Part shown: in pieces, positions 13,161 to 23,040 of the stretch
Layout of the letters: every line of letters begins with the position of its first letter
Numbering within the stretch: position 1 is the first letter of the stretch
Virus record (IMG/VR): IMGVR_UViG_3300025120_000221
Location: 1-35,402 of that record
Length of the DNA: 35,402 nt
Strand: one strand, 5' to 3'
DNA from: a virus
Program-made: the position numbers and the translations under genes
The notes under the pieces: generated by a model
What the model was told of the DNA's origin: nothing
Database searches by the model: none
What the model saw: the letters and a program-made list of their open reading frames with translations, nothing else

Positions 13161-13199
13161 ACAGTCAAGAAAAACTATATTACTTTAGGAGGTAACAAC

Positions 13200-13397
13200 A
13201 TGACAAGAACAAGACAACAAAGAATAGAACAGGTGAAAGCGTTCATTACTATTTCAGAGCTACACAAAGCTAACGGCATTGAGTACAAGGACAAAAACAT
13301 TGACGACCATATCCAAGGTCTTAAGTGGGAACTAGAAGCTCTTACTAACGATGCTATAGTGACTGAACTAGACAGAGTCTGGGCTACCATAAACTAA
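13200..13397 (+). CDS. Hypothetical protein, 65 aa, first gene of rightward island
   Basis: A charged helical protein (TRTRQQRIEQVKAFITISEL, later HIQGLKWELEALTNDAIVTE). It is preceded by a strong site (TTTAGGAGGTAACAAC), nearly the same leader as the gene at 13482. It is followed at once by a Rho-independent terminator, so it can be made as a separate short transcript. No family is recognised. Confidence 0.7.
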   Translation: MTRTRQQRIEQVKAFITISELHKANGIEYKDKNIDDHIQGLKWELEALTNDAIVTELDRVWATIN

Positions 13398-13440: not shown

Positions 13441-13481
13441 GGTGCAAGTCATATAATTTAATTACTTTAGGAGGTAACAAA

Positions 13482-13895
13482 ATGACAAAGAAAAACGAGA
13501 TATATTTAAAAGTTAGATTAGCTGAGCATCTTGATTGCGATATAGAGGACATAGAGCAAGGTTATGATGAATCAACTTTTAATCTAGGCGATCAAGAATA
13601 TTTATTATTAACTGATGAAGAAGCCGACCAAAGAGCCGAGGAATACATTAAAGACTCAATATGGGCATTTATCCCCTCTTTCCTTGCAAGTCATACGGGA
13701 CTTGATGAAGAGATAATAAAGCATTTACAGGACAAGAGCGAGAGAGCAAATGATGCTTTATTAAACGCTATTAAAGACATTGATTCTTTTATTAGTGATG
13801 CTATCCGCTGTGATGGTAGAGGGCATTTTATGCATAGCTATGATGGTTATGAGCAAGACTTAGATGATAATTTATTTTTATATAGAATTAATTAA
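13482..13895 (+). CDS. Conserved phage protein, 137 aa, unknown
   Basis: An acidic protein with LLLTDEEADQRAEEYIKDSI, WAFIPSFLASHT, and a C-terminal GRGHFMHSYDGYEQD...LYRIN. The DEEAD..A.EYI.DS.WAF and GRGHF...YDG...YRIN pair is a pattern I associate with conserved small proteins of large phages and mobile elements. It has no known function. The leader ATTACTTTAGGAGGTAACAA is almost the same as that at 13200. Expected to be expressed early, from position. Confidence 0.75.
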   Translation: MTKKNEIYLKVRLAEHLDCDIEDIEQGYDESTFNLGDQEYLLLTDEEADQRAEEYIKDSIWAFIPSFLASHTGLDEEIIKHLQDKSERANDALLNAIKDIDSFISDAIRCDGRGHFMHSYDGYEQDLDDNLFLYRIN

Positions 13896-14996: not shown

Positions 14997-15056
14997 GAAA
15001 GCCTTGGAGGGTGATATTATCAACTCCCCCTAAAGTAGTCACCCTTCTTGGCTTTC
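14997..15056. terminator. Two-sided terminator between convergent genes
   Basis: Arms of 18 bases (14997-15014 and 15039-15056) pair as GAAAGCC / GGCTTTC and AGGGTGA / TCACCCT, with 3 mismatches between the two blocks and a 24-base loop. It sits between the rightward gene ending at 14989 and the leftward gene ending at 15039, and it overlaps the latter's stop codon. Confidence 0.7.
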
Positions 15057-15473
15057 CTCTAACATCACACCCAAACCAACAAACAAAAAATGCTTATGTT
15101 GCACCCCACGTTTTAGGCTTCGCAACACTTTCTTCTCCCCATCAATAGCACACCAAATAATATCTAAATCCATCAAATTCTGAATACCTTTACTAACGGT
15201 CTTTCTGTTCATACCAATCATTAACGCCAAGTAGCTAACCGCATCATGGCTAGAATAATCCTGTGCTGAATACCTTTCGCAAAGTGCATACAATACCAAT
15301 TTCTCCCTACTCTTGATATCAGTTCTCCCCAACTGCTTCTTATACCACTTCCAGACAACCTGTTTAAGCTTGGCATAGCTCTTATACTTCATTGCTACCC
15401 CAAACTTTATTAACCCACTCCTCTCGGGCTTCTCAATTGCTTCTATGACCAACCACCATTTTTGTTCTTTCAA
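15039..15473 (-). CDS. Winged-helix DNA-binding protein (regulator or replication initiator-like)
   Basis: Up to 144 aa from a TTG directly after the upstream stop, or 117 aa from the ATG at 15392, which has a GGGG site. The core SREKLVLYALCERYSAQDYS with YLALMIGMNRKTVSKGIQNL and MDLDIIW is a helix-turn-helix of the replication-protein type (helix_turn_helix_36-like). Such domains occur in phage replication initiators and in transcription factors. It is the last gene of the leftward replication operon, downstream of the GGGTACCC repeats, so it could bind them. Start choice is uncertain. Confidence 0.65.
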   Translation of the reverse strand: MKEQKWWLVIEAIEKPERSGLIKFGVAMKYKSYAKLKQVVWKWYKKQLGRTDIKSREKLVLYALCERYSAQDYSSHDAVSYLALMIGMNRKTVSKGIQNLMDLDIIWCAIDGEKKVLRSLKRGVQHKHFLFVGLGVMLEESQEG

Positions 15474-15839
15474 CTAACTAACCGCCTTAAGACTAAAATC
15501 CCTGTTTGTATAATACTGATTAACCAATAACATTGGCTCTTTGCAAATCCTATATACTCGTTTCCTTTTATCCTTCCCCCTCTCCTTGCACATATATTCT
15601 CTTGCCACAAAATCATCTAACACTGTCGCTATCGTTGACCTACTCCCCATGCTTCCCGGCAATAGCTTCACTATTGCTTCAAAGTTAATGCTTTTGCTAC
15701 TCGCGTTAGCAATAGCAACCTCTAAAACTAAAACATAATGTAAAGGATCAGACCACCAGAACGACATGAATCCTCTCTTCCTTCTATTCCGATGGAATTC
15801 ATCTCTTGCTTCTGTCATTCTTGCTTCTAACTGCTTCAT
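15474..15839 (-). CDS. Winged-helix (MarR-like) DNA-binding protein
   Basis: About 121 aa. Charged N-terminal helix (KQLEARMTEARDEFHRNRRK), then DPLHYVLVLEVAIANASS, a recognition segment GSRSTIATVLDDFVAREYMC and a wing-like ERGKDKRKRVYRI. This resembles MarR-type winged helices. An ATG at 15860 exists, but AAGGA is correctly spaced only for the ATG at 15839, which I chose. It lies directly downstream of the hairpin and GGGTACCC repeats and abuts the next wHTH gene. It is a candidate for the missing phage regulator. Confidence 0.65.
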   Translation of the reverse strand: MKQLEARMTEARDEFHRNRRKRGFMSFWWSDPLHYVLVLEVAIANASSKSINFEAIVKLLPGSMGSRSTIATVLDDFVAREYMCKERGKDKRKRVYRICKEPMLLVNQYYTNRDFSLKAVS

Positions 15840-15931
15840 GTATGTTTCCTTTTGTTGCATTGCATTTAGTTATTAACCTAACAATTACAACCCAACTTTA
15901 TGAGTAAATATTACTGATACTTTTACCCACC

Positions 15932-15960
15932 GAGAGATGAGCCTAAAGGCTCACTCTCTC
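15932..15960. terminator. Strong hairpin upstream of the winged-helix genes
   Basis: GAGAGA-TGAGCC (15932-15943), loop TAAA, GGCTCA-CTCTCTC (15948-15960): a 12-bp stem with one bulge. It sits between the 43-aa gene and the winged-helix genes. It is not followed by a clear T-tract in either direction, so it may be an attenuator or a protein-binding RNA/DNA structure rather than a terminator. Confidence 0.5.
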
Positions 15961-15983
15961 TATTAGTTTAGTCTAGGATATAT

Positions 15984-16045
15984 GGGTACCCGTGTACCCA
16001 ATCATTGACCATACGGGTACCCTTGTATTGACCATACGGGTACCC
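15984..16045. repeat. GGGTACCC palindromic repeat cluster (iteron or operator candidate)
   Basis: GGGTACCC occurs at 15984-15991, 16015-16022 and 16038-16045, with a one-base variant GTGTACCC at 15992-15999. The last two are inside perfect 19-bp direct repeats ATTGACCATACGGGTACCC (16004-16022 and 16027-16045), 23-bp period. The cluster ends 2 bp from the stop codon of the 43-aa gene and is noncoding. Together with the flanking hairpin it fills the gap 15861-16047. Confidence 0.85.
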
Positions 16046-16047
16046 AA

Positions 16048-16179
16048 TCACTTTTGCTTTGGTTTATCTTTTTTAGGTTCTTTTTTCTCTTTCTTTTTAC
16101 CAAATGCTAACTCCCAACGATCAGCAAAAGTTTTTTTATCAATCTGCATTGGTCTTCTATCGCTTCCCTTTCCATTCAT
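16048..16179 (-). CDS. Small conserved phage protein, 43 aa
   Basis: MNGKGSDRRPMQIDKKTFAD then RWELAFGKKKEKKEPKKDKP. The GKGS.RRP...F...W...FGKKK layout recurs in very short proteins of many phages, often near replication genes; its role is unknown. AAGGAG precedes the ATG. It follows the primase-helicase gene by 13 bp and ends beside the GGGTACCC cluster. Confidence 0.75.
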   Translation of the reverse strand: MNGKGSDRRPMQIDKKTFADRWELAFGKKKEKKEPKKDKPKQK

Positions 16180-16192
16180 TATTATTTACTCC

Positions 16193-18055
16193 TTAGTCCC
16201 ATTCAAAAGACTTTTTATTTTCATCTAAAATTTCTAAAACTGCACCCTTTCTAAAAAGAGTTTTAATACTTGTGTCACATTTAAAGTTGCTCTTAACAAC
16301 TGCACCCTTAACAACTTTCATTGGATCAAAGTCTTCACCTTGCTCAAAACAAACCTTCTCAGCTTCATCCTTACCCGCATTAAAGACAACAATTCCTTGT
16401 CTACTTCCATCAATTATGCTTGAAGCTCCTCTGATATTTTGTCTCATTTTTGTTAATGATTGGTCTTCGCCTTCATTTAATGCTTGCTTGCTCATGTGAT
16501 GCATTGAAATGCAGGTAATACCAAGTTGAGCAGATATACCCGCAGTAAATGTTGACCACAATTGCCCTGCTTCATTAGAGCTACTGATTGGCATTGATGA
16601 TCCAATAAATGCCTGGATAGGATCAAAGATAACTAACTTTAAATTCTTTAAGGATTTTAACTCTTCAATCAATTCGTTTGCACGTTGGGAAAGTTCATCA
16701 TCTTTTAATAATATTAATGGTTTACCACTGTCTGCAACTGTATAAATAAATACATCATATAAAGAATCAAATCGCTTACCCGTTTTATCTATCTCAGATA
16801 TCCTTCTCCAAACTTCGCTGTGACTGTCTTCCGCAGAAATAATAAGTGCATCACCTCTGCCAAGAACTGTTTTACCTAACCAACTGCCACCATTGGCTAC
16901 CTTCATAGCTAGATCAATACCGAGAAATGATTTACCGATACCACCTACACCCGCCAATACTGAATTAATACCAAGAGGAATTAAATCATCAACTAACCAT
17001 TCAATAGGTGGCGGACTTCCAACCAAGTTACGAATTGCATAATTTCTTAAACCGAAGGCATGTTCAGTTAATTCAGTTTTAACCTGTTCCAAACCTTTAG
17101 ATAAATGCAGATCATTAAAATCACCTGTAATGCTTGGTAGTCTGGAAACACAATTACTAACTGCATTAACTACTTCGTTAGCATTTTTCTCACCAATACC
17201 AGACGTATCGTTATCAAGTGCAATAACAAACTTAGCACCCGTTACCTCACGCAACCTAACACTCGCTGTTAAACAGAAATTAGCAGAGAAGACCACCGCA
17301 ACAGGTAATCCTGTAGCTTCAAATATAGAGCTTCCTGTAGCGTATCCCTCGCATAAAATTAGGGTATCAAGATAGGGCAATTCAGTTGCTTCACAACCAA
17401 TTAAAAATACATTGCCTTTAATCTCGCCACCACCGACAAACTTTTTACTGCCATCTGGAAAGATATATTGGAGGGACTTTATATCGTTTACTAATATACC
17501 GTTATCACTTTTGGTGATAGAATGCACGGGAATCAATAGGTTTCCATTGATTGTTTTTAAACCATAGCTTTTAACCTTTTTATCATTTAAATAATTATGA
17601 TCCGTCACTTCATTCGCACTAGCAAACTTTTCTTTGGCATATATGGAAACCTCTTCTTGCTTCTTAGTCTTAGCTTCCTCTCGCCTTTTTTGACTTTCCT
17701 CCAACTTAGTCTGCATTAATCGTTTTTGTTCAGCAGACATCTCGTTAGGATTATAAGAAGTAAACTTCCACTCCTGGGACGTTCTCCAATTACCGTAAAT
17801 GCAGACAAAGTTATTGTCTAATTGATTGTATGCATAGTAACCAGATCGTTCATTTGATTTATCTGGTCTTGTCGTTGCAGTTGCACTAACGCTAACTCTA
17901 ACTAGATTGCCTGTGGTGTCTAAAAAATCTACAAGCAAACCATTAGAACGCATCTCACTAATAAGATCGCCATTAGATTTACTGGTACTTGTAAAAGCAA
18001 AGTTCTTGTCTATTACTAAACCTTGCTCACCATAAAATTGTGTTAAATCAGTCAT
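16193..18055 (-). CDS. Toprim primase-helicase
   Basis: The 620-aa protein would prime and unwind phage DNA. Residues about 230-315 form a Toprim domain: CEGYATG with E236, ALDNDTSG with D281/D283, and GDFNDL (311-316). Residues about 350-590 form a RecA-like ATPase with Walker A GVGGIGKS (369-376), ISAEDS, Walker B KLVIFDP with D478, and a SMHHMSK sensor-like strand. A coiled-coil linker (residues about 108-145) precedes the Toprim region. The N-terminus lacks the cysteines of a CHC2 zinc domain; a zinc-binding protein is encoded just upstream and overlaps by 8 bp. No polymerase gene is present, so host polymerase is presumably recruited. Confidence 0.88.
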   Translation of the reverse strand: MTDLTQFYGEQGLVIDKNFAFTSTSKSNGDLISEMRSNGLLVDFLDTTGNLVRVSVSATATTRPDKSNERSGYYAYNQLDNNFVCIYGNWRTSQEWKFTSYNPNEMSAEQKRLMQTKLEESQKRREEAKTKKQEEVSIYAKEKFASANEVTDHNYLNDKKVKSYGLKTINGNLLIPVHSITKSDNGILVNDIKSLQYIFPDGSKKFVGGGEIKGNVFLIGCEATELPYLDTLILCEGYATGSSIFEATGLPVAVVFSANFCLTASVRLREVTGAKFVIALDNDTSGIGEKNANEVVNAVSNCVSRLPSITGDFNDLHLSKGLEQVKTELTEHAFGLRNYAIRNLVGSPPPIEWLVDDLIPLGINSVLAGVGGIGKSFLGIDLAMKVANGGSWLGKTVLGRGDALIISAEDSHSEVWRRISEIDKTGKRFDSLYDVFIYTVADSGKPLILLKDDELSQRANELIEELKSLKNLKLVIFDPIQAFIGSSMPISSSNEAGQLWSTFTAGISAQLGITCISMHHMSKQALNEGEDQSLTKMRQNIRGASSIIDGSRQGIVVFNAGKDEAEKVCFEQGEDFDPMKVVKGAVVKSNFKCDTSIKTLFRKGAVLEILDENKKSFEWD

Positions 18056-21670: not shown

Positions 21671-21952
21671 ATGAGTATAGATAAAGTTACAAGAGAGGAG
21701 TGGGATAAATTGGAAAAATTAAAAAAAACCAACAAGGTAGATTTAGTTAACAAGCCACCGCATTACCAGGGCAAGATAGAATGTATAGACTTAATAAAAG
21801 ATAGGGTTGGTTCTAATAACTTTCCAGCTTACTTAGAGGGAAATATTTGGAAATATTTATATAGACATAAGGACAAGGACAGCAACATCCAATGTCTAGA
21901 AAAAGCACAATGGTATTTAAACGCTTTAATTAAACACTACGAAGAACTTTAA
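21671..21952 (+). CDS. DUF3310 family protein (phage nucleotide kinase-like annotation)
   Basis: The protein is 93 aa. It has the family core NKPPHYQGKIECIDLIKD, then FPAYLEGNIWKYLYRHKDKD and CLEKAQWYLNALI. The family is very common in phages and is often labelled a nucleotide kinase, though without a Walker motif. An AAGGAGG site precedes the ATG. It is convergent with the integrase gene, and their stop codons share bases 21950-21951. Confidence 0.85.
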   Translation: MSIDKVTREEWDKLEKLKKTNKVDLVNKPPHYQGKIECIDLIKDRVGSNNFPAYLEGNIWKYLYRHKDKDSNIQCLEKAQWYLNALIKHYEEL

Positions 21953-23040
21953 TTAGACATCATTATCTTCTGCATATAGTTACCAACATTCTGCATTTCT
22001 TCGGTGGCTATATGCTCTCTAGTTTTACGGTAACGCTCAGTAGCCTTAATGCTTTTATGTCCCATAAGAGTCTTCACATCTTCAATCTTCATTTGCTCAC
22101 CTGCCATAGTACCAAAGTTATGTCTTAGATCGTGGAACGTCACATCTGGACATCCCGCAGCTTTTCTAATTTTGTTCCAAGTATGGAACGGATATTTAAC
22201 ACCAAGTATTGTTTCGCTGTTTCTATCGCAAGAGTTAATGATTGCCATAGCTTGATTGTTTAGATGTATTACTCTTGGCTTACCTTGGTAGTCTGTCTTA
22301 TGTTCTTGCAAGACTAATTTATTACCATCAAGATCAGACCACTTAGCACTACCAATTTCGCTAACACATCTACCACCAGTCAAGATACATAGCCTTATAT
22401 ACTTGATAGAATTTAAGTGTCGCTCATGTGTTTGTGACTCTATGATATTGATCTGCTTATTTATTTCAGCGAACTCTTTATCTGTTAAAGGCCTATCACG
22501 TTGCATCTCAGGGTTCTTTTTAACGTACTTTGCAGGATTATACTTAACTAAAGACAATCTAATGCTGTTCTCAAACACAGAACTAATCAATTGCACCACT
22601 CTATTAGCTTGATACTTAGCTCTCTTACTTACTGCAATATGTAGCTTAGTTATATCACCAGTCTCAACGCTTTCTAGTTTCATCTTACCTAAAGTATTCT
22701 TAACATCTCTATCCCACATACGTCTTGGCTCACCATCTATCTTGCCATCCTTCATCTCTACGCACTTCTTATTATTGTTGAACAAGTCTTCTAGCTTTAA
22801 CTCAAACGCCTGGTTTAAGGTATAAGCATCAGCTTCTACTTTCTTTGCTTCTAATGGATCAATGCCTTGAGCTACTTCACCAAGTATCTTTTGTGCTTTG
22901 TTTCTTGCAACACCAATCAAGACATCTTTACTTGCTATCTTCATCTCTCTGGTCTTCTTGTTGTACCTATAATGCAGATAATAACCTGTCTTATATATCT
23001 TTAATGCGCTCACTTGTTTATCAGTCTGGTATCTTGCCAT
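21949..23040 (-). CDS. int: Tyrosine recombinase integrase
   Basis: The 363-aa protein has all catalytic residues: R224 (TGGRCVSEI), K248 (QEHKTD), H303 and R306 (FHDLRHNFGT), H328 (LMGHKS) and Y337 (ERYRK). The N-terminus (KIYKTGYYLHYRYNKKTREM, DPLEAKK) is the arm-binding domain of P4-like integrases, followed by a core-binding SAM-like region. A good site (GAGGAGCAAAGC) precedes the ATG. A candidate attP with arm sites lies directly upstream. It shows the phage is temperate. Confidence 0.93.
   Translation of the reverse strand: MARYQTDKQVSALKIYKTGYYLHYRYNKKTREMKIASKDVLIGVARNKAQKILGEVAQGIDPLEAKKVEADAYTLNQAFELKLEDLFNNNKKCVEMKDGKIDGEPRRMWDRDVKNTLGKMKLESVETGDITKLHIAVSKRAKYQANRVVQLISSVFENSIRLSLVKYNPAKYVKKNPEMQRDRPLTDKEFAEINKQINIIESQTHERHLNSIKYIRLCILTGGRCVSEIGSAKWSDLDGNKLVLQEHKTDYQGKPRVIHLNNQAMAIINSCDRNSETILGVKYPFHTWNKIRKAAGCPDVTFHDLRHNFGTMAGEQMKIEDVKTLMGHKSIKATERYRKTREHIATEEMQNVGNYMQKIMMSN

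Follow-up and report, generated by a model that had tools for sequence, protein, structure and literature searches.

In the window, by which we mean the whole 35,402-bp stretch of viral DNA analysed here, a cluster of short palindromes lies next to a primase-helicase gene, which raises the question of whether this block acts in replication or in gene regulation. An earlier note had offered both answers, proposing either the iterons of a replication origin or the operator set of a lysis-lysogeny regulator. Our analysis indicates that the block is probably the iteron array of a phage replication origin, bound by an O-like initiator that we designate WH2. The origin function is deduced from the family that WH2 resembles, from where the array lies and from the plan of its repeats. 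The iteron half of the original proposal is thus well supported by the conserved repeat architecture, by co-variation of the array with WH2 and by the likeness of WH2 to O-type proteins, while the lysis-lysogeny half found no support.

Most genes of the window, including the replication module, are carried on the minus strand, with small ORFs on the plus strand between 13.2 and 15.0 kb. The minus-strand genes include an integrase (21949-23040), an exonuclease, a Sak4-like protein, the primase-helicase and SP43, which are followed by the array and by two winged-helix genes, WH1 and WH2 (Table 1). The structural model of WH1 is a MarR/TubR-like winged helix (pLDDT 83). On the plus strand, two nearly identical 28-bp ribosome-binding blocks (ATTACTTTAGGAGGTAACAA[C/A]ATGACAA; 13179-13206 and 13461-13488) precede two small ORFs.

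Table 1. Coordinates of the array and of the features around it in the window.
Feature	Position	Strand	Remarks
WH2, 144-aa winged-helix protein, putative initiator	15039..15473	-	tracking codons 89 (15207-15209), 91 (15201-15203) and 122 (15108-15110)
WH1, 128-aa MarR/TubR-like winged-helix protein	15474..15860	-	does not track the array
AT-rich segment, candidate unwinding region and/or WH1 leader	15861..15931	-	28.6% GC over 15861-15930
Bulged stem-loop adjoining the array	15932..15960	-	GAGAGAgTGAGCC-TTTA-GGCTCATCTCTC; compensatory changes; without U-tract
Putative iteron unit 3	15984..15999	-	GGGTACACGGGTACCC
7-bp spacer, units 2/3	16000..16006	-	AT-rich; length constant in the 35 distinct arrays measured
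Putative iteron unit 2	16007..16022	-	GGGTACCCGTATGGTC
Spacer, units 1/2	16023-16029	-	
Putative iteron unit 1	16030..16045	-	minus strand reads GGGTACCCGTATGGTC; half-sites GGGTA and GACCA
SP43, 43-aa basic gene	16048..16179	-	ends just before the array; adjoins the array in most relatives
Primase-helicase (Toprim_3 and AAA_25), likely replisome component	16193..18055	-	

Read on the minus strand, the block consists of three tandem 23-bp units, each of which comprises a 16-bp hyphenated dyad, GNNYA-N6-TRNNC, and a 7-bp spacer. The palindrome cluster described in the earlier note is real, with exact copies of GGGTACCC at 15984-15991, 16015-16022 and 16038-16045 and the near-perfect copy GTGTACCC at 15992-15999. 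The perfect 19-bp direct repeats, ATTGACCATACGGGTACCC, were likewise confirmed at 16004-16022 and 16027-16045 (spaced 23 bp), and no further copy occurs anywhere in the 35,402-bp record. The block is noncoding, as had been stated, and lies between the stop of the 43-aa gene (16048) and the WH1 start (15860); it begins 2 bp past the SP43 stop codon, and a gap of about 120 bp or more separates its far end from WH1. When up to one mismatch is allowed, the 35 kb contain 4 copies of GGGTACCC, an ordinary number by itself, as 42 of 100 shuffles reach 4. What is unusual is the clustering and periodicity: the tandem dyad GNNYA-N6-TRNNC-N7-GNNYA-N6-TRNNC is found twice, both times in the array, against 0.01 expected, and class-specific single dyads are found three times, all within the array, against 0.055 expected. 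GGGTACCC itself was rejected as the functional unit, being exact in 7 of 35 distinct arrays and missing from the other 28; the palindrome is a by-product that arises because the GGGTA half-site is followed by CCC. The natural unit is instead the 16-bp dyad, repeated three times at a 23-bp period. Arrays with GGGTACCC (15984-16045 in the window) contain GGTACC, a KpnI-type restriction site that is absent from the other array classes and that might bear on restriction or on nearby methyltransferases.

Relatives of the locus were found among uncultured IMG/VR contigs, the samples of which we take to be marine. None was confirmed in the genome contig collection, and the primase has only distant matches in cultured phage records. 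Because an anchor motif downstream of the arrays, and not the dyad, was used to find them, the invariance of G1, A5 and C16 in the units is not built into the search. The array-bearing loci comprise 54 distinct combinations of array, WH1 and WH2, and the unit statistics are based on 105 units from 35 distinct arrays. The place of the array is constant, either right after SP43, the small gene that follows the primase-helicase, or shortly after it where a further gene is inserted, and every array-bearing locus has three 23-bp units except for one irregular case (L019). Positions 1 (G), 5 (A) and 16 (C) are invariant in 105/105 units and position 12 is T in 100/105, while the letters vary widely, with 41 distinct units among the 105; the spacers are AT-rich and fixed at 7 bp in the 35 distinct arrays measured. 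Conservation of the repeats in relatives had been named as a test of the proposal, and it is the repeat plan that is conserved and not the letters. No orphan array without the phage was found, although one new contig, L131, ends just after its array.

DNA methyltransferase genes, recognised by eye from sequence motifs, are often inserted between the primase-helicase and SP43, beside the array; the window has none. Insertions of the C5-cytosine type are present in L007, L010-L012, L016, L019, L033, L034, L041, L046 and L131, and other methyltransferase-like insertions in L020, L030 and L131. Another cargo insertion, a 252-aa ORF of phosphoadenosine-phosphosulphate-reductase type as judged by eye, lies between SP43 and the array in L039 (12139-12897).

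The half-site sequences fall into three main classes, which track residues 89, 91 and 122 of WH2. Proteins that read NKR at these positions accompany the half-sites GGGTA/GACCA, those with HHA accompany GTATA-type half-sites (GTATA/GTACA/GGACA/GTAAG), and those with NHA or NHR accompany GGCTA/GGATA plus some GTATA; the distant locus L035 pairs the code SVK with GGATA/GTAAA/GGAAA. WH2 code and half-site class agree in 36 of 38 distinct rows. Both code-breaking rows, L003 (GGGTA array with an HHA protein) and L074 (GTATA array with an NKR protein), originate from metagenome 3300046167. L003 is likely a chimeric assembly because L041, a contig with a GTATA array from the same metagenome, breaks off inside the WH1 start in sequence that is shared with L003. 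Alternatively, the code-breaking rows are possibly real recombinants.

A segregation scan was applied to the window's clade without L003 and took in 377 variable sites, those of the array excepted, in a stretch that begins shortly upstream of SP43 and runs past WH2. Perfect segregation with the array class is observed at five of these sites, all of which are located in WH2 codons 89, 91 and 122, about 770-940 bp away from the array. No intervening site segregates in the same clade (0/117 in WH1 and 0/30 in the intergenic region), and no site segregates perfectly when L003 is included. Once the three residues are masked, the identity of WH2 amounts to 97.0% within classes and 96.4% between classes. 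Simple linkage was rejected as the cause of the co-variation in the window's clade, since the masked protein is as alike between classes as within them and no intervening site follows the class. A tree with the three columns masked contains nearest neighbours that differ in class; the number of supported independent pairs does not suffice for significance, and none of them points the other way. A single-column mutual-information ranking was confounded by many-state columns and by SP43, which abuts the array, and was replaced by the clade-restricted test. WH1 was rejected as the specificity determinant, as it has no segregating site. The earlier note had expected either winged-helix protein to be the binder, of which WH2 tracks the array and WH1 does not. 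That the array sequence changes in step with three WH2 residues points to WH2 as the initiator, and we are highly confident, on the strength of this co-variation, that WH2 would bind the array dyads specifically.

Family searches show a distant similarity of WH2 to the DNA-binding domain of lambda-O-type initiators. With matches counted at E up to 0.1, phrog_678 ('replication initiation O-like') is matched by 38 of 41 WH2 members (best 2.4e-8) and TIGR01610 (phage_O_Nterm) by 36 of 41 (best 3.2e-6). The WH2 of the window scores 15.8 bits against TIGR01610, for which the curated cut-off is 45.5, and its HTH_36 match is also under the curated cut-off; PF04492 matches are weak and occur in 6 members. 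The homologous domain spans residues 47-108. In the structural model (pLDDT 62), a helix (residues 90-102) is followed by two strands (107-110 and 113-116), with residues 89 and 91 at the start of the helix and residue 122 just past the two strands. This arrangement is what one would expect of a recognition helix and a wing. A fold search against the PDB gave no significant match, and no WH2 relative was matched in cultured phage records. WH2 thus resembles an O-type DNA-binding domain and probably works like one.

The fold of the stem-loop that adjoins the array is kept in relatives, together with its bulged base, through compensatory changes (TGAGCC/GGCTCA, TGCCC/GGGCA and TGGCC/GGCCA), and the outer A-T pair is swapped for T-A with a shift of the bulge. 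The tail of the stem-loop reads GGTGGGTAAAAG. An intrinsic terminator was rejected because there is no U-tract; terminator-like sites are absent from 15000-16300, and Rfam returned nothing at or above the gathering score, with the single hit within E 1 far under its cut-off. The stem-loop may serve for priming or for helicase entry, or it may be a terminator of atypical form. The stability of the 40-bp windows in 15861-15930 ranks at the 6th-24th percentile in this genome of 37% GC, so that the flank is moderately but not extremely unstable. Between the hairpin and WH1 (15900-15931), a palindromic segment, AGTAATATTTACT, is conserved in most relatives and is possibly a WH1 regulatory site. A turn of the GC skew at the array, which had been suggested as a check, is absent. 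The third-codon-position GC skew of the minus-strand genes flips sign near 12.4 and 28.1 kb, away from the array, and these flips could mark module borders or replication/packaging landmarks.

Four other explanations of the block were weighed against an origin, the most serious of which is regulatory. An operator of the CI/Cro type overlaps divergent promoters beside the repressor gene. In contrast, the genes on both sides of the array are co-directional, the array closely follows a stop codon, a hairpin and about 120 bp or more separate it from WH1, and the array carries no promoter-like site. More broadly, WH2 might be a transcription regulator and the array its operator or enhancer, which would control WH1-WH2 or shut off the replication operon. 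The small size and winged-helix nature of WH2, the binding of tandem dyads by many phage regulators and the location of the array upstream of WH1-WH2 in the direction of transcription all agree with such a role. However, the start of the array 2 bp past the stop codon, the roughly 120 bp and conserved hairpin that separate its end from WH1, the lack of an overlapping promoter-like site, and the best family matches of WH2, which are replication initiators, render this explanation unlikely. Autoregulation is possible as a second role of the initiator. A partition or segregation (centromere-like) site bound by a winged-helix protein is suggested by the resemblance of the WH1 model to MarR proteins and to the plasmid segregation protein TubR, but we consider it very improbable: WH1 shows no co-variation with the array, the phage encodes an integrase, and no ParA- or TubZ-like product appeared among the matches of the proteins scanned, a subset of the genes.

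The array could also work as a single-stranded or cruciform structure and not as a set of protein sites, as pairing is possible between the GGGTACCC copies and the DNA folds strongly (z -6.0). Only 28 of the 105 units have complementary halves, however, which argues for protein half-sites over base pairing; a hairpin or cruciform array was rejected on the 77 units with non-complementary halves. Each half is drawn from the set allowed for its class, and the co-variation is with protein residues, so that a structural role is slightly less probable still than partition. The idea that chance or mutational decay left functionless repeats finds some footing in the ordinary near-palindrome count, but can be practically dismissed, as three units are maintained at a fixed 23-bp period in 35/35 distinct arrays measured even though the variable letters have turned over almost completely.

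We therefore return to an iteron origin as the preferred reading, in which WH2 would bind three sites at 23-bp spacing, each 16-bp dyad most likely being occupied by a WH2 dimer. The GNNYA half-sites would be read by the start of the recognition helix (residues 89 and 91) and by the residue just past the wing (122). Once assembled, this nucleoprotein complex would melt AT-rich DNA close by and bring in the primase-helicase that the phage encodes, much as lambda O, bound to its iterons, recruits the helicase of the host. Several results weigh against an origin of this type: the GC skew does not turn at the array, its AT-rich flank is no more than moderately unstable, the WH2 of the window falls under the curated cut-offs of TIGR01610 and HTH_36, its model is of middling confidence and has no significant fold match, two rows depart from the code, and the tree-based test does not reach significance.

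In lambda, an O dimer binds each iteron, an 18-bp hyphenated inverted repeat (PMC6022878), and the iterons lie within the O gene, next to a tract rich in AT (PMC6022878, PMC7466680). The present locus resembles lambda O and ori-lambda, as well as the P22 and Shiga-phage types, in its tandem hyphenated dyads, in a predicted winged-helix-type N-terminal DNA-binding domain, in its place in the replication module and in having type-specific replication modules (PMC6022878, PMC7466680, PMC3349717). The feature that defines lambda iterons, tandem hyphenated inverted repeats of ~18 bp, is found here as three 16-bp dyads at a 23-bp period, compared with four 18-bp repeats in lambda. Whereas the lambda iterons are inside the initiator gene, the array (15984-16045) is outside WH2 (15039-15473) and beside the primase-helicase gene. 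WH2, with 144 aa, lacks the long C-terminal domain by which lambda O binds the helicase loader P, helicase and primase appear to be phage-coded, and a conserved bulged hairpin flanks the array. The PLE satellites also carry three semi-palindromic iterons, and mismatch tests are available for their initiator domain, which covaries with the origin (PMC8263062, PMC7145576). The RepA of these Vibrio cholerae elements belongs to a different family, RepA_N, for which no match appeared with WH2, and a whole domain is exchanged in PLE, whereas three residues switch here in a nearly constant protein. The IncQ plasmid RSF1010 encodes the initiator RepC, the helicase RepA and the primase RepB, and possesses oriV iterons and hairpin priming sites. 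It is comparable to the phage locus in its small iteron set bound by an initiator, its element-coded hexameric helicase and primase, and its hairpin priming sites, for which the phage stem-loop is a candidate counterpart; primase and helicase are fused in the phage. On the best reading, the locus is of a known kind, an iteron origin with an O-like initiator, and is new in that the array is outside the initiator gene, the initiator is minimal, the primase-helicase is phage-coded, and specificity would be switched by three residues.

More tentatively, the phage population might keep at least three interchangeable origin-specificity classes. A switch between these classes would involve about three residues of the O-like initiator, which is minimal at 144 aa, along with a concerted change of all three iterons, and the covarying bulged hairpin would be a primase or helicase entry site; we hold these elements, taken jointly, to be a possibility worth entertaining. 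If true, interchangeable classes would suggest that being different at the origin is selected for, for instance as a way to evade satellites, competitor origins or nucleases that target the origin. A plasmid that carries lambda origin DNA inhibits those phages that use the lambda replication module (PMC3349717), and such inhibition could plausibly drive the diversification of origin types. Which phages, satellites and competitor plasmids can interfere with each other depends on origin specificity, as has been shown for lambda (PMC3349717) and for PLE satellites (PMC8263062). The locus offers a natural experiment on how initiator specificity changes, with nearly identical proteins, three switching residues and three repeat classes, and provides an uncultured marine phage group with a concrete candidate for its replication origin and initiator.
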